From Paenibacillus aceti (GTDB lineage Bacteria > Bacillota > Bacilli > Paenibacillales > Paenibacillaceae): a stretch of 64,000 bases of DNA. How positions within the stretch are numbered: the first letter of the stretch is position 1; each line of letters opens with the position of its first letter. Below the pieces are notes generated by a model. The model saw only the letters and a program-made list of their open reading frames with translations, made no database searches and was not told the DNA's origin. Location of the stretch: NCBI RefSeq assembly GCF_003614185.1, contig NZ_KZ987724.1:5314668-5378667 (forward strand), written 5' to 3'. Shown here piece by piece: positions 29,420 through 40,507 of the stretch. The position numbers were made by a program, and so were the translations under genes.

Positions 29420-31873
29420 ATGCAGTCCATAGCCCATATACGGGAAAGTGATCGTAAGATTCAGACGGTTGAGGAGCATTTGCTAGAGGTTATGAAATTG
29501 GCGGAGAAGTATGGAGCGAAATTGCATGTCAGGCATATTGCGGGGTTAGCGGGATTGTTGCATGATTTAGGCAAGTACACCCATCGATTTGTGGAATACA
29601 TACTGGCTGCGACCGATTCAAACTCTGCGACCAAACCGAGAAGAGGCGAGGTCGATCATTCAACGGCTGGGGGGAAGCTGCTATTCGATTTATTTCACAA
29701 TAAGGATCACGGTCCTTATAAGATGATTCTTGCAGAGATCGTTGGCAATGCGATCATCTCGCATCACTCCTATCTGAAGGATTTCTGCGGTCCAGACTGG
29801 GAGTCGGAATATTTGAAGCGGGTCAAGGAGAAAGTGACAGGACTAGAGGAATACGAGTTGAGTAAAGAGACATTTTTCGAAAATGTAATGAGTGAGCGCG
29901 AGTTTAATGACTATGTAGACCGTGCGGCGACCGAGCTGGAACAATTCCTTCAACAAAATAATCCCCAGAACTTTGAATTAAACTGCATGTTTCTAACCAA
30001 GTTTATCTTCAGTATGCTGATTGATGCGGATCGTACGAATACGAGGGGATTTGAAGCAAATCAGCCCGATGAAGAAGAACTGGATACGAATGAGCTATTT
30101 TCACTTTATTACACCAGATTGATGAAGCACATCGTTGGATTGAAAGATCGGAAGGGTGAAAATCCGAATATAAATCTGTTAAGAAGCAGAATGTCTGACC
30201 TATGTGAGCAGTTTGCCTGGAACCCATCGGGGATATACACATTGTCCATTCCTACTGGGGGAGGAAAGACGCTGGCTAGTTTGCGTTATGCGCTAAGACA
30301 TGCCCAGGAATTCGATAAGCGAAGAATCATTTATGTGCTGCCATATACGACCATTATTGAACAAAATGCTGAAGAAGTTCGTAAGATTCTGGATGATCGG
30401 GATCATATTCTGGAGCATCATTCCAATGTGGTAGAAGAGGATAGCCAAGATGAAGACGATGAGTTGCAGGATGGTTACGTAACAGCTGGGCAAAGGCTGA
30501 AGCTGGCCAAAGACAACTGGGATGCGCCAATTATTTTTACGACGATGGTACAATTTCTGAATGTGTTCTATGCAAAGGGAAGCCGTAATATCCGCAGACT
30601 CCATAATCTATCCAATGCTGTCATTATTTTCGATGAGGTTCAGAAAGTGCCTACGAAATGCGTCTCCCTCTTTAATTTGGCGCTTAATTTCTTGAAAGAG
30701 TGTGCTGGGTCAAGTATTGTACTCTGTACGGCAACCCAGCCTGCACTTCATTATGTAGAGAAGGAACTACATCTTAATCAAGAACCTGAAATGATCACTT
30801 CTATTGATGATGTGATTGAGGCTTTCAAGCGTGTGGAAATTGTGGATCGTACGATGGAGCCGCTTAATACAGAACAATTAGCTGAATTTGTCCTTGAACG
30901 CTTTGATGATCCGAATGGCATCAACAATGTATTGGTCATTTTAAATACGAAGACGGTTGTTAAAAAGCTGTATAACCGACTGAAGGAATTTGAAACTTCG
31001 ATCCCGATCTATCATCTTAGTACATCCATGTGCTCGAAGCATCGAAGTGATAGATTAGACAAGGTTAAGGAGCATTTAGCAAAAGAAGAGAAGGTCATTT
31101 GTGTCAGCACGCAGTTAATTGAAGCCGGGGTGGATATCAGCTTCGACTGTGTCATCCGTTCTTTGGCTGGTTTGGATTCCATTGCGCAGGCGGCTGGAAG
31201 ATGCAACCGCCATGGAAAAGATCCATTGCGTCAGGTGTATGTCATCGATCATTTAGAGGAGAATCTAAGTAAGCTGCCCGAAATTGAGGACGGGAAGAGT
31301 ATTGCTCGGACCTTGCTTACGGATTTGAGACGAGATTCGAGCGTGTACGGAGGGCATTTACTGTCACGTGCCGCAATGGAAAGGTATTTTGAAAGTTTCT
31401 ATACGGAACAGGCAGCAGATCTTGATTATGACATAAAAGAATTAAATAGAAGGAAGATGACGGAGCTGCTATTTGGTCCCAAAGGTGACTCTGATTCTTA
31501 TTATGCGGATTATAGACATAATAAAGGGGTAAATCTTCCTCTGATGCTGGCCAATAGCTACGGAACTGCTGCTAAGTATTTCGAAGTCATCGATCAAGCG
31601 ACGACATCGGTAATTGTCCCTTATGGTGAGGGGGAGCGGATCATTACGGATTTGAATGGAAGTCCTTCCATTGATGATCTGACCACACTATTACGATCTG
31701 CACAACAATTTACGGTTAATCTATACCGTCATGAGCGTGACCATTTGATTGAGAACGATGGAATCGAGAGCTACTTCGAGGGGCAAGTGTTAGTTTTGCA
31801 TGAGCGAGCCTATAACGAAGAATTTGGCTGTGACATTGAAAATGATAGCTCCATGGCCTTCCTAGGCTATTAA
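29420..31873 (+). CDS. cas3: CRISPR type I-C helicase-nuclease Cas3
   Basis: An 817-residue Cas3 with an N-terminal HD nuclease (LLHDLGKYTHRF, His48-Asp49) fused to a superfamily 2 helicase. Walker A PTGGGKT lies at about 278, the DEVQ box near 405, and QAAGRCNRHG near 590. Cas3 is recruited by target-bound Cascade to unwind and degrade DNA. GGGGAGGAATAATTA gives a strong ribosome binding site. It lies 263 bases from cas5c, with an opposite-strand mini-crRNA unit between them, so cas3 and the cas5c operon are probably separate units. Confidence 0.95.
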   Translation: MQSIAHIRESDRKIQTVEEHLLEVMKLAEKYGAKLHVRHIAGLAGLLHDLGKYTHRFVEYILAATDSNSATKPRRGEVDHSTAGGKLLFDLFHNKDHGPYKMILAEIVGNAIISHHSYLKDFCGPDWESEYLKRVKEKVTGLEEYELSKETFFENVMSEREFNDYVDRAATELEQFLQQNNPQNFELNCMFLTKFIFSMLIDADRTNTRGFEANQPDEEELDTNELFSLYYTRLMKHIVGLKDRKGENPNINLLRSRMSDLCEQFAWNPSGIYTLSIPTGGGKTLASLRYALRHAQEFDKRRIIYVLPYTTIIEQNAEEVRKILDDRDHILEHHSNVVEEDSQDEDDELQDGYVTAGQRLKLAKDNWDAPIIFTTMVQFLNVFYAKGSRNIRRLHNLSNAVIIFDEVQKVPTKCVSLFNLALNFLKECAGSSIVLCTATQPALHYVEKELHLNQEPEMITSIDDVIEAFKRVEIVDRTMEPLNTEQLAEFVLERFDDPNGINNVLVILNTKTVVKKLYNRLKEFETSIPIYHLSTSMCSKHRSDRLDKVKEHLAKEEKVICVSTQLIEAGVDISFDCVIRSLAGLDSIAQAAGRCNRHGKDPLRQVYVIDHLEENLSKLPEIEDGKSIARTLLTDLRRDSSVYGGHLLSRAAMERYFESFYTEQAADLDYDIKELNRRKMTELLFGPKGDSDSYYADYRHNKGVNLPLMLANSYGTAAKYFEVIDQATTSVIVPYGEGERIITDLNGSPSIDDLTTLLRSAQQFTVNLYRHERDHLIENDGIESYFEGQVLVLHERAYNEEFGCDIENDSSMAFLGY

Positions 31874-31879
31874 TCAGAG

Positions 31880-31966
31880 GGAAAAAACCTATCTTCGCTG
31901 TTAAATGGCGAGATAGGTTCCCTAATAAAATGCTATATCTTTCAATCCGCGCTAATCACTAGCGAC
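31880..31966 (-). ncRNA. CreR/CreA-like guide RNA: degenerate repeat, spacer-like segment, terminator
   Basis: On the strand opposite the cas genes there is one degenerate CRISPR repeat at 31966-31939. It keeps GTCGC at its start, a 5-bp stem (CGCTA/TAGCG) with a 5-base loop, and the handle GGATTGAAAG identical to both arrays. It is 28 bases long against 32 in the arrays; the lost four bases shorten the stem by two pairs and leave the loop length intact. The spacer-like segment starts at 31938 and reads ATATAGCATTTTATTAGG. A terminator follows (arms at 31886-31898 and 31908-31919, then six T at 31887-31882). An extended -10 promoter lies directly upstream. It is inferred to be processed by Cas5c and loaded into Cascade. 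Confidence 0.8.
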
Positions 31967-31971
31967 GCTTT

Positions 31972-32000
31972 ATTATAGCATAAAACTGGTGGGCTTAAAA
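31972..32000 (-). promoter_or_regulatory. Promoter of the mini-crRNA unit
   Basis: Read on the minus strand, TGCTATAAT (31980-31972) is a perfect extended -10. The -35-like TTTTAA at 32000-31995 is weak, at 17-base spacing. Predicted initiation falls within a base or two of the first base of the degenerate repeat, leaving almost no untranslated leader. Confidence 0.7.
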
Positions 32001-32022: not shown

Positions 32023-32048
32023 TTCATATATCATTTAATTGATAATTC
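32023..32048 (+). promoter_or_regulatory. Cascade target site 1 for the mini-crRNA
   Basis: TTC (32023-32025) is followed by ATATATCATTTAATT. Compared with the spacer-like segment, positions 1-5, 7-11 and 13-15 match. The only mismatches up to position 15 are 6 and 12. TTC is the usual type I-C PAM. Site 2 begins 23 bases further on. Confidence 0.72.
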
Positions 32049-32082
32049 ATATAACATTTAATTAGAAATTTGTTGACTCTGA
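32046..32082 (+). promoter_or_regulatory. Cascade target site 2, overlapping the cas5c -35 region
   Basis: TTC (32046-32048) is followed by ATATAACATTTAATTAG. Positions 1-5, 7-11 and 13-17 match the spacer-like segment, with mismatches at 6, 12 and then 18 onward. A full-length protospacer of about 34 bases would cover the -35 box at 32073-32078, so Cascade bound here would block RNA polymerase. Confidence 0.75.
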
Positions 32083-32101
32083 TATTTGGAAAGGATACAA
32101 T
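32073..32101 (+). promoter_or_regulatory. Sigma-A promoter of the cas5c-cas2 operon
   Basis: TTGACT (32073-32078) and TACAAT (32096-32101) are separated by 17 bases, five of six matches in each box. Transcription would start near 32108, leaving about 29 bases before the GTG start of cas5c. Confidence 0.85.
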
Positions 32102-32136: not shown

Positions 32137-32862
32137 GTGATTAGAAATAGTGTGGAGTTCGAAGTGTATGGGGACTATGCTCTTTTTACTGACCCCTTAA
32201 CGAAAATGGGCGGGGAGAAGCTGAGCTATCAAATCCCCACATACCAGGCCATGAAAGGTATTCTTGAAAGCGTTTACTGGAAGCCGACCATCATGTATAT
32301 CATTGATGAAATTCGTGTGATGAACCCGATCCGTATGGAATCCAAGGGAATTAGACCGATTGACTATAGCGGAGGCAATACGCTTGCGAATTATACTTAC
32401 TTGCGGGATGTCCGCTACCAATGCCGTGCTCACTTTGTGTTTAATCTGAATCGACCTGATATGGAGTTCGATCGTAACGAGCATAAGCATCACAATATCC
32501 TGAAGCGATCGATCAAAGCAGGGGGAAGAAGAGATATTTTTCTCGGAGCCCGGGAATGTCAAGGTTATGTTGAACCATGCGTATTTGGTGAGGGAGAAGG
32601 ATTCTACGACAACTACGAGGGCGAGATTCATTTTGGAACGATGGTCCACGGGATCAATTATCCGGATGAGACGGGACGGAATGAAATGGAGACCAGGCTC
32701 TGGAATCCTGTAATGAGGAACGGATATATCGAGTTTATCCCGCCCGAAGATTGCCTACAGGTGCGCAAAATTTCGGATATGCAGCCGAAGATTTTCAATA
32801 CATCCAATGTAGAATCTGTCCATGATGTGCTGGCGCAGATGGAAGAGGGTGAGAGGCTGTGA
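32137..32862 (+). CDS. cas5c: Type I-C Cascade subunit and crRNA endonuclease Cas5c
   Basis: A 241-residue Cas5d/Cas5c. In type I-C, which lacks Cas6, this protein cuts the repeat RNA and stays on the 5' handle. Seen: the N-terminal ferredoxin-like start [20 protein letters not shown], the region [20 protein letters not shown], and the family motif [10 protein letters not shown]. It starts at GTG behind AAGGAGG with 6 bases between. Its stop overlaps the cas8c start by four bases. As the crRNA processor it would also mature the opposite-strand mini-crRNA. Confidence 0.94.
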
Positions 32863-34817
32863 GCTGGCTGCTGGATTTATATGAAACTTATAAAGCTAAT
32901 TCGGGGCGGGTTGGCGTTAAGGAGAAACGATTTATAGACAGGGAGCAGCAGAAGTTCATTGAATACACCTTGCTACCCATCTCACATACAACGCAGACTG
33001 CGCATATTGAGGTGAGAGTTACGGAGAGCGGAGACTTCCATTCCGCAGAGGTCATCGACAAGAATGATGCCAATACGCTGATTCCTTGTACGGAGGATTC
33101 TGCAAGTCGGGCAGGCTCCAAGGTAGCCCCTTATCCACTGCATGACAAGCTTAGCTATGTAGCAGGTGATTTTACCGCTTATGGTGGTGTAATCAAGAAG
33201 GAAGAGCCCTTCAGAGCTTATATTGAGCAGTTGGCAGATTGGGCGAACTCTCCGAATGCACACGAGAATGTGAGGAGCATCTATACTTATCTGAAAAAAG
33301 GACGGTTAATCGAGGACCTGGTCGCGGATCGCAAGCTGGCTGTGGATGAACAGGGGCATTTAATAGGCAAATGGGATAAGAAATACGCATCCCTCTATGA
33401 AGAAAAACCAGCGATTTTCTCTTCTCTGGCCGGAGAGCAGTCAGACGCTTTTATTCGCTTTACTGTACATTCCACGCGACGGGCTATGAAGAAGACTTGG
33501 GACGATCCGGAAATGTACGAGTCCTTTGTGCAGTATTATAACCACAAGTTAGGTGATAAGAAGCTCTGCTATGTGACTGGCGAGATTATGCCCGGTACAA
33601 GCAAGCATGCTAACAAAATCAGAAATCCGGCGGATAAGGCAAAATTAATCTCGGCGAATGACAAGACCGGATTTACCTTCCGGGGACGTTACAGTGATAG
33701 TGAAGAAGTGGCTAGTATCAGTTACGAAGTGTCACAGAAGGCGCATAACGCGCTCAAATGGCTGATTCATCGGCAAGGGAAGGTCATTGATCAGCGGGTG
33801 TTCCTGGTCTGGTCCAATGGTGATGATTCAGACATCGTTCCACCAGAAGACGATACGTATACCTTCCTTCCAGGAGTGGCAGCTACGTTAGCTCAAGGGA
33901 AATCCTTCACAAATGATCTGTTAGCCGAGGAGTTATGGAAGGCGCTGGGCGGCTATAAGAACAAATATGCTGATTCTAAGGCGAAGGTCAGTCTACTGGT
34001 GCTAGATTCAGCAACAACGGGCCGGATGGCTGTATTGTATTATCGCCATATGGCTCAGCAGGATTATTTTAAGCGATTGGTGGATTGGCATTCAACCTGT
34101 GTATGGCTGCACCGCTATCAGAAGAATCAACAGGGGGAGTTTGTGATCTTCTACGGAGCACCAGCGACGCGAGATATCGCCTTCGCGGCCTATGGCTCCA
34201 AAGCGGGAGATAAAGTCGTAAAGGGCTTAATGGAACGAATGCTTCCCACCATTATAGACGGACGTCATATACCGATAGATATTGTCAGAAGTGCATTCCA
34301 ACGGGCTTCCAATCCTGTATCGATGGAGAAATGGGAGTGGGAGAAGACGCTTAGCATAACATGTGCCTTGATAAACTATGGATTGATTCAGAAGAAGGAG
34401 GGATACGAGGTGGCGCTAGATAAAGAAAATCAGGATCGGGATTATCTGTTTGGACGGTTGTTGGCTGTTGCGGATGTGCTGGAGAGACGAGCTCTGGGTA
34501 ATGAGGAGAATCGGGCTAGCAATGCTATTCGATATATGAATTCTTTTGCCCAGCATCCGGCCCGAACGTGGACAACCATTCAAGCGAGTTTACAGCCGTA
34601 CCAGGCACGTCTAGGTGCGAAGGGGTATTATTTGTCCGGTCTGATCGATGAGATTGCTTCTAAGCTCAAGTTTGAGGATTTTAATAATAAGCCATTGTCA
34701 GGTAAGTATCTGTTGGGCTTCTATAGCCAAAGACATGATCTTTATCAAAAGAAAGAAAAAACAGGCGTAGCAAGTGTAGATACCGCTGAACAATCCAATG
34801 AAGAGGAGATGGAATAA
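32859..34817 (+). CDS. cas8c: Type I-C Cascade large subunit Cas8c (Csd1)
   Basis: A 652-residue Csd1-family protein, slightly longer than typical (about 570-620). In type I-C it recognises the PAM and opens the DNA. An internal start inside the same gene is known to give a small-subunit equivalent (Cas11c) in other type I-C systems; an in-frame start in the last third could serve, but I cannot decide which. It overlaps cas5c by four bases and abuts cas7. Confidence 0.93.
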
Positions 34818-35678
34818 ATGTCAATTCTGGATCATAAAATTGATTTTGCTGTAATTTTCTCGGTAACAAAGGCCAATCCCAACGGAGATCCGCTGAATGG
34901 AAACAGACCGCGGCAGAACTATGACGGATATGGGGAGGTTTCGGATGTAGCGCTGAAACGTAAAATCAGAAATCGCCTGCAGGATATGGGGGAATCTATT
35001 TTTGTACAATCCAATGATAGAACAACGGATTCTCTGAAAAGTCTGCGAGAGCGTGCGGATGCGAATGAAGCTTTAACTAAAATCATGAAGTCCAAATCCG
35101 TCTCCAGTGAAGAGTTTGCCAGCGTGGCCTGTGAGGAATGGATCGATGTGCGTAGTTTTGGACAAGTGTTTGCCTTTAAAGGCAGCGGGGAAAAAGGGGT
35201 CTCTGTCGGCGTAAGAGGCCCGGTATCCATCCATACAGCGACTAGCGTGAGCCCGATCGATATCACGAGTATGCAAATTACAAAAAGTGTGAATTCGGAG
35301 CCTGGAGATAAGAAGGGTTCGGATACAATGGGGATGAAGCATAGAGTCGACTTCGGTGTATATGTATTCAAAGGTAGCATCAATACTCAATTGGCTGAGA
35401 AGACCGGATTTACGAATGAGGATGCGGAGAAGATCAAGGAAGCGCTCGTCAGTCTGTTCGAGAATGATTCCTCGTCTGCCAGACCGGAAGGCAGCATGGA
35501 GGTTCATCAGGTTTATTGGTGGGAGCATTCCTCCAAGCTAGGTCAGTATTCCTCGGCTAAGGTACATCGCTCATTGTCTGTTAAGCCACGTAAGGACGAG
35601 CCTAAGTCTTTTGAAGACTATGCTGTTGAATTAACCGAATTGGACGGACTCCAGGCTGAGATCATAGATGGCCGTTAA
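34818..35678 (+). CDS. cas7c: Type I-C Cascade backbone subunit Cas7c (Csd2)
   Basis: A 286-residue Csd2 protein. It starts with the family's DHKIDFAVIFSVTKANPNGDPLNGNRPRQ-type region (DFAVIFSVTKANPNGDP), has the long insert with RGPVSIHTATSVSPIDI, and ends with a Trp-rich VYWWEHSSKLGQYSS segment. Several copies coat the crRNA spacer; their thumbs flip out every sixth crRNA base, which is why mismatches at positions 6 and 12 are tolerated. It starts on the base after the cas8c stop. Confidence 0.95.
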   Translation: MSILDHKIDFAVIFSVTKANPNGDPLNGNRPRQNYDGYGEVSDVALKRKIRNRLQDMGESIFVQSNDRTTDSLKSLRERADANEALTKIMKSKSVSSEEFASVACEEWIDVRSFGQVFAFKGSGEKGVSVGVRGPVSIHTATSVSPIDITSMQITKSVNSEPGDKKGSDTMGMKHRVDFGVYVFKGSINTQLAEKTGFTNEDAEKIKEALVSLFENDSSSARPEGSMEVHQVYWWEHSSKLGQYSSAKVHRSLSVKPRKDEPKSFEDYAVELTELDGLQAEIIDGR

Positions 35679-36327
35679 TTCTGAAGATGATTATCTCATG
35701 TTGTCGGGGATACAGCATTTTCAATTTTGTCGAAGGCAGTGGGCCTTGATCCATATTGAGCAGCAATGGGAGGAGAATGTCAGAACCGTTCAGGGGCAGT
35801 ATCTCCACCGCAAGGCGGATCAGCCCTTTGTCAGAGAGAAGCGGGGCGATAAGCTCGTCGTAAGAGCGATGCCGGTGAAATCCGATGGCTTGGGAATAAC
35901 GGGAATCTGTGATGTGGTCGAGTTCATCAGGGATGATCGGGGCGTTGAGATTAGCGGAGCAGAAGGCAAATATATCGCTTATCCAGTGGAATATAAACGG
36001 GGAAAGCCGAAGAAGGATGATGCGGACATTCTACAGTTAACTGCACAGGCGCTATGCCTGGAGGATATGCTGCTCTGTGAAATCGACACAGGTTATATGT
36101 TTTATAATGAAATTAAACGTCGTGTTGAAGTAGCTCTTACTTCAGAGATGAAGGAGAAGGTACGATCCGTCGTTCGTGAAATGCAGGATTATTATCGGCG
36201 GCGGTATACTCCAAAGGTCAAGGCAGGCCCCCATTGCAAAAGCTGCTCCCTTCAATCGATCTGTCTGCCCGAACTTATGACCAAGCGCAGCGTGAAGAGT
36301 TATATCGAAGGGAAGATCAGAGAATGA
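35668..36327 (+). CDS. cas4: CRISPR adaptation nuclease Cas4
   Basis: A 219-residue Cas4 (RecB-like PD-DxK fold with a 4Fe-4S cluster). Cys in HFQFCRRQWALIH near the N-terminus and HCKSCSLQSICLP at the C-terminus are the cluster ligands. VEYKRGKPKK holds the catalytic Glu-Lys. Cas4 trims prespacers and fixes PAM and orientation with Cas1-Cas2. It overlaps cas7c by 11 bases and cas1 by four. Confidence 0.95.
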   Translation: MAVNSEDDYLMLSGIQHFQFCRRQWALIHIEQQWEENVRTVQGQYLHRKADQPFVREKRGDKLVVRAMPVKSDGLGITGICDVVEFIRDDRGVEISGAEGKYIAYPVEYKRGKPKKDDADILQLTAQALCLEDMLLCEIDTGYMFYNEIKRRVEVALTSEMKEKVRSVVREMQDYYRRRYTPKVKAGPHCKSCSLQSICLPELMTKRSVKSYIEGKIRE

Positions 36328-37355
36328 GGAAGCTGCTGAATACGCTGTTTGTCACACAGCCGGAGGTGTATTTATCTCTGGATGGCGATAATATCGTACT
36401 GCTCAAGGATCAGGAGAAATTAGGCAGAGTGCCGCTTCACAATCTGGAGTCTATTGTAACCTTTGGTTATACCGGGGCTAGTCCGGCTTTAATGGGGTAC
36501 TGTGCGGAACGGAATATATCTATTGTTTTTCTGAAAATGAATGGTGAATTTCTGGCCAGGGTCATTGGAGCGAGCAAAGGGAATGTTGTGCTAAGGAAGA
36601 AGCAAAGTCTTCTCTCGGACAACGAAAGGGAATCTGCGGTGATCGCCCGTAATTTTATCATCGGTAAAATCTACAATCATAAATGGATGATCGAGAGAAT
36701 GACTCGGGATTATCCGCTGCGGATTGATGTTGCGGAATTCAAGGAGGCCTCGGAGCATATGTCCTCCATGATGACTGCGATCAGAGAGTGCGAGGATCTG
36801 GAGCAGTTACGGGGCCTGGAGGGGCAGGCGGCACTTAGTTATAACAAGCTGTTTGACCATATGATCTTGCAGCAGAAGGAGGATTTTTCTTTCCGTACTC
36901 GTTCACGCAGACCTCCGCTGGACCCTGTAAATGCGATGTTGTCGTTAGCATATACGTTGCTGGCTCATGATATGACCTCTGCTCTCGAGGCCGTCGGATT
37001 GGATGCGTATATCGGCTTCCTGCATCGCGATCGTCCTGGACGAGCTTCTCTGGCACTCGATGTGATGGAAGAATTGCGCGGGATTTATGCTGATCGGTTC
37101 GTACTGTCCTTAATCAATAAAAGAGTAGTCAGTGCGGGGGATTTTGTCCGTAAGGAGAACGGAGCCGTACTGATGACCGATGAAGCTAGGAAGGACTTCT
37201 TGGCGGCCTGGCAGACTAAGAAACAAGAGAGTATTGTGCATCCTTTTCTGGGCGAGAAAATATCCTGGGGGCTGGTTCCCCACGCTCAAGCTCTGCTGTT
37301 AGCCCGATATCTGCGCGGCGATCTGGACGAATATCCGCCGTTTCTATGGAAGTAG
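36324..37355 (+). CDS. cas1: CRISPR integrase Cas1
   Basis: A 343-residue Cas1. It starts MRKLLNTLFVTQPEVYLSLDG and includes GFLHRDRPGRASLALDVMEELR, the conserved catalytic His-Asp region. With Cas2 it inserts new spacers at the leader end. The ATG at 36324 overlaps the cas4 stop (ATGA); an upstream in-frame ATG at 36234 lies inside cas4 and is rejected. Confidence 0.96.
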   Translation: MRKLLNTLFVTQPEVYLSLDGDNIVLLKDQEKLGRVPLHNLESIVTFGYTGASPALMGYCAERNISIVFLKMNGEFLARVIGASKGNVVLRKKQSLLSDNERESAVIARNFIIGKIYNHKWMIERMTRDYPLRIDVAEFKEASEHMSSMMTAIRECEDLEQLRGLEGQAALSYNKLFDHMILQQKEDFSFRTRSRRPPLDPVNAMLSLAYTLLAHDMTSALEAVGLDAYIGFLHRDRPGRASLALDVMEELRGIYADRFVLSLINKRVVSAGDFVRKENGAVLMTDEARKDFLAAWQTKKQESIVHPFLGEKISWGLVPHAQALLLARYLRGDLDEYPPFLWK

Positions 37356-37672: not shown

Positions 37673-37834
37673 GTGGTGCGAACCCCAAGCGAACATGATT
37701 TCCCTAGGGGATTCGCACCACGAAAATCATGGATTATATCCATGTATGTAATAAAATGTAATTATGAGAAACTCTTAAAAGTAGTTTTTTTATGTAAAAT
37801 GCGGTTTTCGGGCTCTTTTTACCCGAAAATCGGA
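37673..37834 (+). promoter_or_regulatory. Leader of CRISPR array 1
   Basis: An AT-rich leader between cas2 and the first repeat. It opens with a long inverted repeat: GTGGTGCGAACCCC at 37673-37686 and GGGG-ATTCGCACCAC ending at 37721. It ends AAATCGGA just before the first repeat. The leader of array 2 shares both features. It likely holds the array promoter and integration signals. Confidence 0.78.
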
Positions 37835-40134
37835 GTCGCATCCTTCGTGGATGCGTGGATTGAAAGAAGAAAACTTAACCGCTTGGAATCGGGTTGAATT
37901 GTCGCATCCTTCGTGGATGCGTGGATTGAAAGACCCGTTCTGTCATTGGTCAACTCAAAACGGTGGAGTCGCATCCTTCGTGGATGCGTGGATTGAAAGT
38001 CATTTTAAGGAGGAATCGTGATGAGCGAAGTTAAAGTCGCATCCTTCGTGGATGCGTGGATTGAAAGTTTATCTCCGACCCTATCCCGGACGTACACATC
38101 GGTCGCATCCTTCGTGGATGCGTGGATTGAAAGCTAAGCGCCGGGCCGCCATTTCCGCCGCTCCGCCCGCGTCGCATCCTTCGTGGATGCGTGGATTGAA
38201 AGCGTTACCTAAGACAGAGAGAGCAGCAGAGAAGTTTGTCGCATCCTTCGTGGATGCGTGGATTGAAAGCACAATTGCTGCGCTCCAGTTGCCTGTGTTG
38301 GTGGTCGCATCCTTCGTGGATGCGTGGATTGAAAGACGTATCGATCCGCAGCCTCAAGTTTGTAACTCTGTCGCATCCTTCGTGGATGCGTGGATTGAAA
38401 GTTGGATCCCCATAAGCAAATCCATAGGATTCCGGCCAGTCGCATCCTTCGTGGATGCGTGGATTGAAAGGTTTCTCTGCCTCTGCTACATGGAGGGCTA
38501 CAATGTCGCATCCTTCGTGGATGCGTGGATTGAAAGCGAATCGCAAAAAAGCAGTAACTCCTTCCCCAGCAGTCGCATCCTTCGTGGATGCGTGGATTGA
38601 AAGTGAATTGCCACAGAAGGTTGAAAAGATAATACCTCGTCGCATCCTTCGTGGATGCGTGGATTGAAAGATGTCTACTCCTCCCCTGTAAACCAATCAA
38701 ATCCTTGTCGCATCCTTCGTGGATGCGTGGATTGAAAGATGAATATGGTCTGCGATATGATGGATTAATGGGCGTCGCATCCTTCGTGGATGCGTGGATT
38801 GAAAGTTAAAATCTTGGAATCGATTTGAAGCACGCCCAAGGTCGCATCCTTCGTGGATGCGTGGATTGAAAGCACCTACTCTAGCTTTGTCCAGCAGCTT
38901 ATCTGCAGTCGCATCCTTCGTGGATGCGTGGATTGAAAGGGGCATGTGTACCTATAGCACAGATATTGACGGGTCGCATCCTTCGTGGATGCGTGGATTG
39001 AAAGTATTCCGTCCTGTGCTAACCCGTCCATGCAACGATCGTCGCATCCTTCGTGGATGCGTGGATTGAAAGGTTTGTGTCATCTCCTTGTTGTTAATTC
39101 TATTATGTCGCATCCTTCGTGGATGCGTGGATTGAAAGTCGCTTCGCCCCTTGACGGACCTGTGCCTGGAACAGGTCGCATCCTTCGTGGATGCGTGGAT
39201 TGAAAGCCGAATCTCGTCCTCATCAATGCGTTTAATCCGGTCGCATCCTTCGTGGATGCGTGGATTGAAAGTTGCTTCGCGATCTTGATTGCCATCCTCT
39301 GAATCCGTCGCATCCTTCGTGGATGCGTGGATTGAAAGCATCTGGCTTTTTACAGCCTTCATGGCCATTAGGAGTCGCATCCTTCGTGGATGCGTGGATT
39401 GAAAGTACACAAAATATGGACAGTAGTTGCGTGGAATATAGTCGCATCCTTCGTGGATGCGTGGATTGAAAGCCTAGTTGGCTGCTATTCAAAAAGATTA
39501 AAGATGGTCGCATCCTTCGTGGATGCGTGGATTGAAAGCGGAAGGGAAAACGTATACGAAAAGGCACGCTGCGTCGCATCCTTCGTGGATGCGTGGATTG
39601 AAAGAAAGAGTCCGGCGCTAAAGTAATTGATACCTTTGCGTCGCATCCTTCGTGGATGCGTGGATTGAAAGAGGCATTAGACCATCTGCAAGATTGACCC
39701 TGACCTCGTCGCATCCTTCGTGGATGCGTGGATTGAAAGATTGAAGAAGGATGGGCTCGTCAGGAGCCTGAAAAGTCGCATCCTTCGTGGATGCGTGGAT
39801 TGAAAGCGTGTGCTGGCGCATTTGGGCCGCCCTGATCTCTGGTCGCATCCTTCGTGGATGCGTGGATTGAAAGGCAGTGGGGTGATTTTCTTAAGCGATG
39901 AAACAAGTCGCATCCTTCGTGGATGCGTGGATTGAAAGTCTCCCCATGCACGAATAGTGTAATAGAATCGGTCTTGTCGCATCCCCCGTGGATGCGTGGA
40001 TTGAAAGGCAAAACGCCATGGCCTGTCTATCGCCAATTGTTGTCGCATCCTTTGTGGATGCGTAGTTTGAAAGCCACCATGCTTTCTAGATCCTCAACGC
40101 TTGGCTTGTCGTATCCTACGTGGATTCATGAAAG
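37835..40134 (+). CRISPR. CRISPR array 1, type I-C, 35 repeats
   Basis: The 32-base repeat begins GTCGCATCCTTCGTGG and ends ATGCGTGGATTGAAAG. It folds into a 7-bp stem (CGCATCC/GGATGCG). I count 35 repeat starts, from 37835 to 40108, giving 34 spacers of about 33-37 bases. The last three repeats (39976, 40042, 40108) carry changes, and the final one is truncated to about 27 bases, which marks the old, leader-distal end. Open frames through the array are artefacts of its regular period. Confidence 0.97.
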
Positions 40135-40350: not shown

Positions 40351-40507
40351 GTGCGAACCCCAAGCAAACATAAAATCCCTGGGGGATTCGCACAAAAAAA
40401 TCTTGATTTTTATCCAAAAATGTGATTAATAAGCAATTATAAAATCTCCAGTATTTTAATTTTAGTAAGAAAGTACCGACTTTTGAATATTTTTGTTCAA
40501 AATCGGA
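40351..40507 (+). promoter_or_regulatory. Leader of CRISPR array 2
   Basis: It repeats the layout of leader 1: GTGCGAACCCCAAGC paired with GGGGATTCGCAC, then an AT-rich stretch ending AAAATCGGA before the first repeat. The inner sequence has diverged well beyond the ends. Confidence 0.75.

Follow-up and report, generated by a model that had tools for sequence, protein, structure and literature searches.

A probable CreR-type RNA element with two matching target sites beside the cas5c promoter of a Paenibacillus aceti type I-C CRISPR-Cas locus

The type I-C CRISPR-Cas locus of Paenibacillus aceti carries, between cas3 and cas5c, a small element that is very probably a cas-regulating RNA (CreR), and Cascade loaded with this creR RNA would repress the operon led by cas5c. 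The assignment is made because of the anatomy of the element and of its target. The element is a crRNA-like gene with a repeat-derived handle, outside the arrays and inside the cas locus, and its guide has limited complementarity, next to a PAM, to two TTC sites in the cas promoter region. The anatomy, the uniqueness of the targets, the covariation of guide and target across related loci and the association with loci in which a wide gap precedes cas5c were observed directly. The window analysed here is the whole 64,000-nt stretch at positions 5,314,668-5,378,667 of NZ_KZ987724.1 (assembly GCF_003614185.1; genome 5.6 Mb). The sequence-only reading of the window had proposed that Cascade carrying this guide represses its own operon, an interpretation that the comparison of sequences supports.

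The subtype assignment rests on the six cas genes scored, all of subtype I-C. The genes and the promoter in front of cas5c are placed as follows.

29420..31873, plus strand: cas3 (TIGR01587 and TIGR01596), upstream of and outside the proposed regulated unit
32073..32101, plus strand: cas5c promoter, TTGACT - 17 - TACAAT, from the consensus scan
32137..32862, plus strand: cas5c (TIGR01876; Cascade subunit that also processes crRNA), first in the proposed regulated unit
32859..34817, plus strand: cas8c (TIGR01863)
34818..35678, plus strand: cas7c (TIGR02589)
35668..36327, plus strand: cas4 (TIGR00372)
36324..37355, plus strand: cas1 of type I-C (TIGR03640)

A gap of 263 bases separates cas3 from cas5c, and the CRISPR arrays lie downstream of cas1. 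The cas5c promoter has 10 of 12 consensus bases, and shuffled sequences hold 1.3 such sites on average. Two adjoining arrays, at about 37835-40070 and from about 40508 to beyond 41069, differ in their repeats (GTCGCATCC..GGATGCG and GTCACATCC..GGATGTG, respectively) and have in common a 50-base leader-like sequence (37676-37725 and 40351-40400; 84% alike). Genome-wide there are 222 copies of the repeat-end pattern (137 forward, 85 reverse), not all of which need be array repeats, and Cas5c has one match in its own genome. With one Cas5c to 222 repeat ends, many crRNAs would compete with CreR for one Cascade.

The element itself is read from the minus strand and has the following parts.

31972..31980, minus strand: extended -10 element TGCTATAAT of the candidate creR promoter, recognised from its sequence
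31939..31966, minus strand: degenerate CRISPR repeat (psi-repeat) GTCGCTAGTGATTAGCGCGGATTGAAAG, with hairpin CGCTA/TAGCG
31922..31938, minus strand: first 17 nt of the guide, ATATAGCATTTTATTAG, flush with the end of the psi-repeat and reading from 31938 down to 31922
31882..31919, minus strand: terminator of the mini-crRNA, with its hairpin at 31886-31919 and a T-run at 31882-31887

The psi-repeat ends in GGATTGAAAG, has its 11-nt handle CGGATTGAAAG at 31939-31949 and retains the 5-bp hairpin; its last 11 bases agree with those of the array repeats at all but one position. Folded alone it forms the hairpin, yet no better than shuffled sequences do (z -0.74), and the hairpin is absent from the predicted best fold of the whole 86-nt transcript. 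The terminator has a fold z of -5.39, none of 200 shuffles being equally stable; it was missed by a simple scan whose loops were limited to 3-8. On the plus strand, the simple terminator scan listed the repeat hairpin as terminator-like. The candidate creR promoter was missed by the consensus scan. Among the 67 related loci with a guide-target pair that are described below, a -10-like motif upstream of the repeat is present in 51, against 44.4 expected in shuffles, which is not clearly above chance, and the motif is therefore not relied on as evidence. The terminator rule is satisfied in 28 of the 67 (no null run), and a search for the repeat hairpin in 56 loci, which had no null model, was set aside as evidence. 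Scanning the window against Rfam with gathering thresholds gave no match.

The guide finds its counterparts on the other strand of the same intergenic gap, just upstream of the cas5c promoter.

32023..32042, plus strand: target site 1, TTC-ATATATCATTTAATTGA, PAM TTC at 32023-32025 and protospacer at 32026-32042, 13/15
32046..32065, plus strand: target site 2, TTC-ATATAACATTTAATTAG, PAM TTC at 32046-32048 and protospacer at 32049-32065, 15/15

Two TTC-flanked matches starting at 32026 and 32049, both mismatched at positions 6 and 12, had been described in the sequence-only reading, and recomputation reproduced them, with pairing at 1-5, 7-11 and 13-15 in site 1 and at 1-5, 7-11 and 13-17 in site 2. 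The further claim that site 2 reaches into the -35 box would hold for the longer footprint of a full Cascade only, as the pairing itself ends at 32065, 7 bases before the box at 32073-32078. When the 162-bp region was subjected to 20,000 dinucleotide shuffles, 4 contained any TTC site scoring at least 13, none had a 15/15 site and none had two sites. A genome-wide search for TTC-ATATA-N-CATTT-N-ATT gave exactly two perfect matches, which are the two window sites; the other nine places carry 2 mismatches, the reversed control pattern has 7 places, and no further exact target was found elsewhere in the genome. A DNA-binding protein that reads similar AT-rich sites at both promoters, with the likeness of the guide as a by-product, would suit the AT-rich composition of the targets and their position near promoters. 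A shared operator of this kind is at odds with a match that is flush with the repeat end, begins at TTC and skips positions 6 and 12.

Related cas5c loci came from two sources: GTDB contigs, which gave 73 loci, and searches of whole genomes in the family, the phylum and the class, where 124 of 395, 32 of 398 and 39 of 398 genomes, respectively, had a Cas5c match; the three genome sets overlap. Removal of duplicates and cut loci left 229 distinct loci. Those excluded were broken or cut matches (G035, G036, G198 and G228), loci with fewer than 400 bases upstream (L060, L062 and L139), the own copy (L082) and 26 loci identical to another over 250 bases upstream; the labels L001-L008 denote array repeats from the P. 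aceti genome and not cas5c loci. Up to 900 bases upstream of cas5c were scanned for ATTGAAA on either strand, the following bases were taken as the guide and a TTC-preceded target was sought, the match being scored over positions 1-17 minus 6 and 12 with a cut-off of 12/15. A guide with its own TTC-flanked target was found in 67 of the 229 loci, compared with a mean of 0.68 loci and a maximum of 3 in 100 runs with shuffled guides. Replacing ATTGAAA by each of seven decoy heptamers gave 0 of 229 loci every time, a control weaker than the shuffles because the decoys are rarer (ATTGAAA has 152 strand occurrences, each decoy 32-78). The 67 loci contain 55 different guide 17-mers in 25 clusters. 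The guide is on the minus strand in all 67, and the target is on the plus strand in 50 and on the minus strand in 17. The joint variation of guide and target through these 55 17-mers, with none from the decoys, weighs further against a shared operator, which is thus highly improbable.

A relaxed look, made without a null, at the 25 wide-gap loci lacking a strict hit found seven at 13-15/15 (L090, L111, L185, L209, L216, L237 and L242, with TTT for TTC in L185) and three that reach 11/15 with TTC (L076, L215 and L264); none of these is counted in the 67. A score of 13 in L226 was discounted, being TGT-flanked and a match on the locus's own guide. In L090, L111, L209 and L216 the handle is altered, GGATTTAAA standing for GGATTGAAA, and 67 is thus probably a lower bound. 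One further locus, L016, retains the repeat and guide in a gap of 105 bases where no TTC target of at least 11 was found; here the promoter may have been lost naturally, along with its operator.

Position by position, the guide matches its target in 67, 66, 67, 67 and 66 of the 67 loci at 1-5, in 67, 66, 63, 64 and 67 at 7-11, in 64, 66 and 64 at 13-15, in 55 at 16 and in 35 at 17, a high level that is partly by construction because these positions were used for the 12/15 selection. Positions 6, 12 and 18 onward played no part in the selection; they match in 5, 27 and 26 loci at 6, 12 and 18, and in 12 to 26 at 19-24. The 5 matches at position 6 compare with 11.7 expected by permutation (P 0.006, ignoring relatedness), and counting by guide cluster gives 3 of 25 against 6.3 expected (P 0.054), so that avoidance of a match at this position is only suggestive.

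Covariation of guide and target had been set beforehand as the test that could refute the proposal, and it was found. On a tree built from Cas3 and Cas5c of 66 loci (L179 was omitted for low coverage), using one resolution of the parsimony states, 128 guide changes fall at positions 1-5, 7-11 and 13-15; for 117 of them the target changes on that branch too, and for 114 it changes to the same base. At positions 6, 12 and 18, by comparison, 16 of 64 guide changes share a branch with a target change and 4 are to the same base, and the corresponding figures at 19-22 are 16 and 6 of 66. Selection of the loci favours mirroring at the pairing positions, yet three mismatches were allowed, and the shuffled-guide null rarely yields such loci. 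These counts also bear on whether the element is a functionless relic of a spacer captured from its own promoter. A guide that nearly copies the promoter region is what such a capture would leave, but a relic would not keep 114 of 128 changes coordinated while drifting at 6, 12 and 18; nor do the two window sites, which differ at 6 and from 16 on, differ within 1-5 and 7-15. There is very little probability left for a relic.

The element is found at loci that leave the effector genes space for their own promoter. Where the gap before cas5c measures at least 130 bases, 66 of 91 loci have a guide-target pair; the pair is present in 1 of 35 loci with 60-129 bases and in 0 of 102 with fewer (1 of 137 for the smaller gaps together), as well as in 0 of 1 loci without an upstream ORF; the 25 remaining wide-gap loci have no strict hit. 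Of the first 198 loci, 142 have no pair near cas5c, and 6 of these have one elsewhere (L031, L051, L055, L080, L201 and L230; no null run), in stretches that cover the region before cas3 only partly. Five of these six pairs are 2.4-3.9 kb upstream, roughly at the site of a promoter upstream of cas3 as judged by distance and not by annotation, and in L051 and L055 TTGACA lies inside the 24-base target stretch. Taken together, the wide-gap link and the far-upstream pairs suggest that the RNA element follows the promoter.

The placement of the targets was followed in the 56 loci listed. The plus-strand targets number 42; the distance from their start to cas5c is 81-117 bases in 32, often just 5' of a -35-like sequence by eye, and 127-738 in the other 10. 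Their 14 minus-strand targets include four located 8-9 bases before TTGACA (L065, L066, L068 and L179), six that end beside the ribosome-binding site (L120, L211, L213, L214, L221 and L224) and four that are 369-602 bases upstream (L119, L208, L217 and L222). Repression by bound Cascade fits the near targets. Antisense pairing with the cas mRNA was considered and ruled out, as the guide has the same sense as the mRNA and the window sites lie upstream of its promoter; mRNA pairing does not fit the plus-strand class of targets, and the sense of that class, with the position of the window sites upstream of the promoter, favours DNA targeting.

A guide of this form could instead act as a CreA-type antitoxin, with a toxin as its object of repression in place of the cas genes, be it a toxin RNA or a small toxin gene (CreTA or CrePA). 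CreTA shares both the RNA anatomy and the pairing rule, as given in the excerpted text of PMC8501985, and three relatives (L042, L191 and L044) have a small ORF, 31-34 aa long, between the target and cas5c, so the same device can serve other ends where its target is upstream of another small gene. The window targets, on the other hand, directly precede the cas5c promoter, the 35 bases from its -10 element to the cas5c start contain no start codon by reading, and 32 of 42 plus-strand targets are at the short distance from cas5c given above. An antitoxin role in the window is therefore very unlikely, although a small toxic RNA without an ORF may lie behind the window promoter. As for the three relatives themselves, the 34-aa ORFs of L042 and L191 are alike (common EKVEL.YAEILKQIVEVIKK) and the 31-aa ORF of L044 is hydrophobic, and their gaps possibly hold a type I-C CreTA or CrePA arrangement.

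The tandem arrangement is unusual, the window alone among the 67 loci having a second TTC site that scores at least 12. Outside the 67, L031, whose pair lies about 0.9 kb upstream, has two sites 20 bases apart. In Paenibacillus sp. GM2, the nearest named relative (Cas5c 93% identical), site 2 is conserved and site 1 is absent, with a gap of about 22 bases in the alignment where site 1 would be. The two window sites form a 23-base direct repeat (family D14) with the same TTC, 1-5 and 7-15, and site 1, missing from the nearest relative, is a lineage-specific extra copy. Given the size of the Cascade footprint, two full footprints on the tandem sites would overlap, and the second site would therefore probably raise occupancy rather than host a second Cascade.

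The preferred reading, self-repression through CreR, predicts the following course of events, in which Cascade occupancy, repression, the lack of Cas3 cleavage and the release are modelled on published work on CreR and CreTA. The minus-strand promoter between cas3 and cas5c would give a short RNA in which the degenerate repeat is followed by a guide with some 17 effective bases and then by the terminator. In type I-C systems Cas5c trims the repeat to an 11-nt handle; it would process this RNA in the same way, and Cascade would assemble on the handle-bearing product. The complex would then bind both TTC-flanked sites just 5' of the cas5c -35 box, through pairing at 1-5, 7-11 and 13-15/17, and would block transcription from cas5c on, through cas8c, cas7c, cas4 and cas1 if the operon extends that far; cas3 is outside the proposed repressed unit. 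Pairing this short would presumably be insufficient to license cleavage by Cas3. The promoter would be freed when ordinary crRNAs compete for Cascade or when inhibitors such as anti-CRISPRs remove it.

A wider reading, which is tentative and somewhat doubtful, is that RNA-guided self-repression is the default of Bacillota type I-C systems wherever the effector genes have their own promoter, with the RNA gene moving along with it. Guide and target would form a locked code whose free positions are the bases that Cascade flips out, the mismatch at position 6 would be actively kept, and the two-operator version of the window would probably tune the strength of repression. If the CreR assignment is true, RNA-guided CRISPR self-repression would extend to subtype I-C, which has Cas5c and no Cas6, and would be the ordinary control for a large group of Bacillota loci, with the control of Cascade and adaptation genes separated from that of cas3. 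The 67 natural pairs would then be an evolutionary read-out of the guide bases that type I-C Cascade uses when it binds without cutting, namely 1-5, 7-11 and 13-15, fading by 17, which would be useful for the design of type I-C gene silencing.

Several known systems resemble the element of the window to different degrees. Workman et al. 2021 reportedly found that Cas9 represses its own expression by means of a naturally occurring single guide RNA, and there too a short guide leads the effector to its own promoter; that case, unlike the window, is of type II, with a tracrRNA-derived guide and an unrelated effector. Shmakov et al. 2023 reportedly predicted crRNA-like elements widely in type I loci, as solitary repeats whose spacers are in part complementary to cas promoters, and the window has the same combination of a stand-alone repeat and a guide partly complementary to a cas promoter. 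No report of a type I-C CreR was found among the titles and abstract starts of the matches listed, a comparison to which neither the text of Liu et al. 2023 nor that of Shmakov et al. 2023 belonged.

CreR is known in types I-B, I-E and V-A, and its autorepression responds to the crRNA level and to anti-CRISPRs (Liu et al. 2023 as summarised in passages of PMC13131331, PMC12737573 and PMC12948488). The element of the window is like the CreR of these passages in being a crRNA-like RNA partly complementary to a cas promoter, and unlike it in belonging to type I-C, in having a single degenerate repeat with a terminator and two tandem targets, and in its place between cas3 and cas5c. A separate solitary type I-C repeat of the P. 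aceti genome (C1:2202309-2202342, or L233:410-443, with context in L269) has a 7-bp stem, promoter-like sequence and a terminator-like hairpin by reading, and resembles the RNA anti-CRISPRs (Racr) as presented in excerpts of PMC10651486. Its surroundings are prophage-like, with holin, GH25 lysozyme, prophage tail and LexA-like matches among four proteins scanned, and its guide-like stretch has no TTC-flanked genome match with fewer than 2 mismatches.

A close parallel in pairing is CreA of the CreTA systems in type I-B haloarchaea, which, in the excerpted text of PMC8501985, likewise has a degenerate repeat, pairing at 1-5 and 7-11 and TTC beside the target. In H. hubeiense, experiments showed that CreA needs every one of positions 1-5 and 7-11 but neither 6 nor 12; its target is TTC-flanked, and a single-repeat CreA with a terminator is known in H. 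hispanica (excerpts of PMC8501985). The element described here differs from CreA as described in those excerpts in that its target precedes the cas5c promoter and not a toxin, and its pairing usually extends to positions 13-16.
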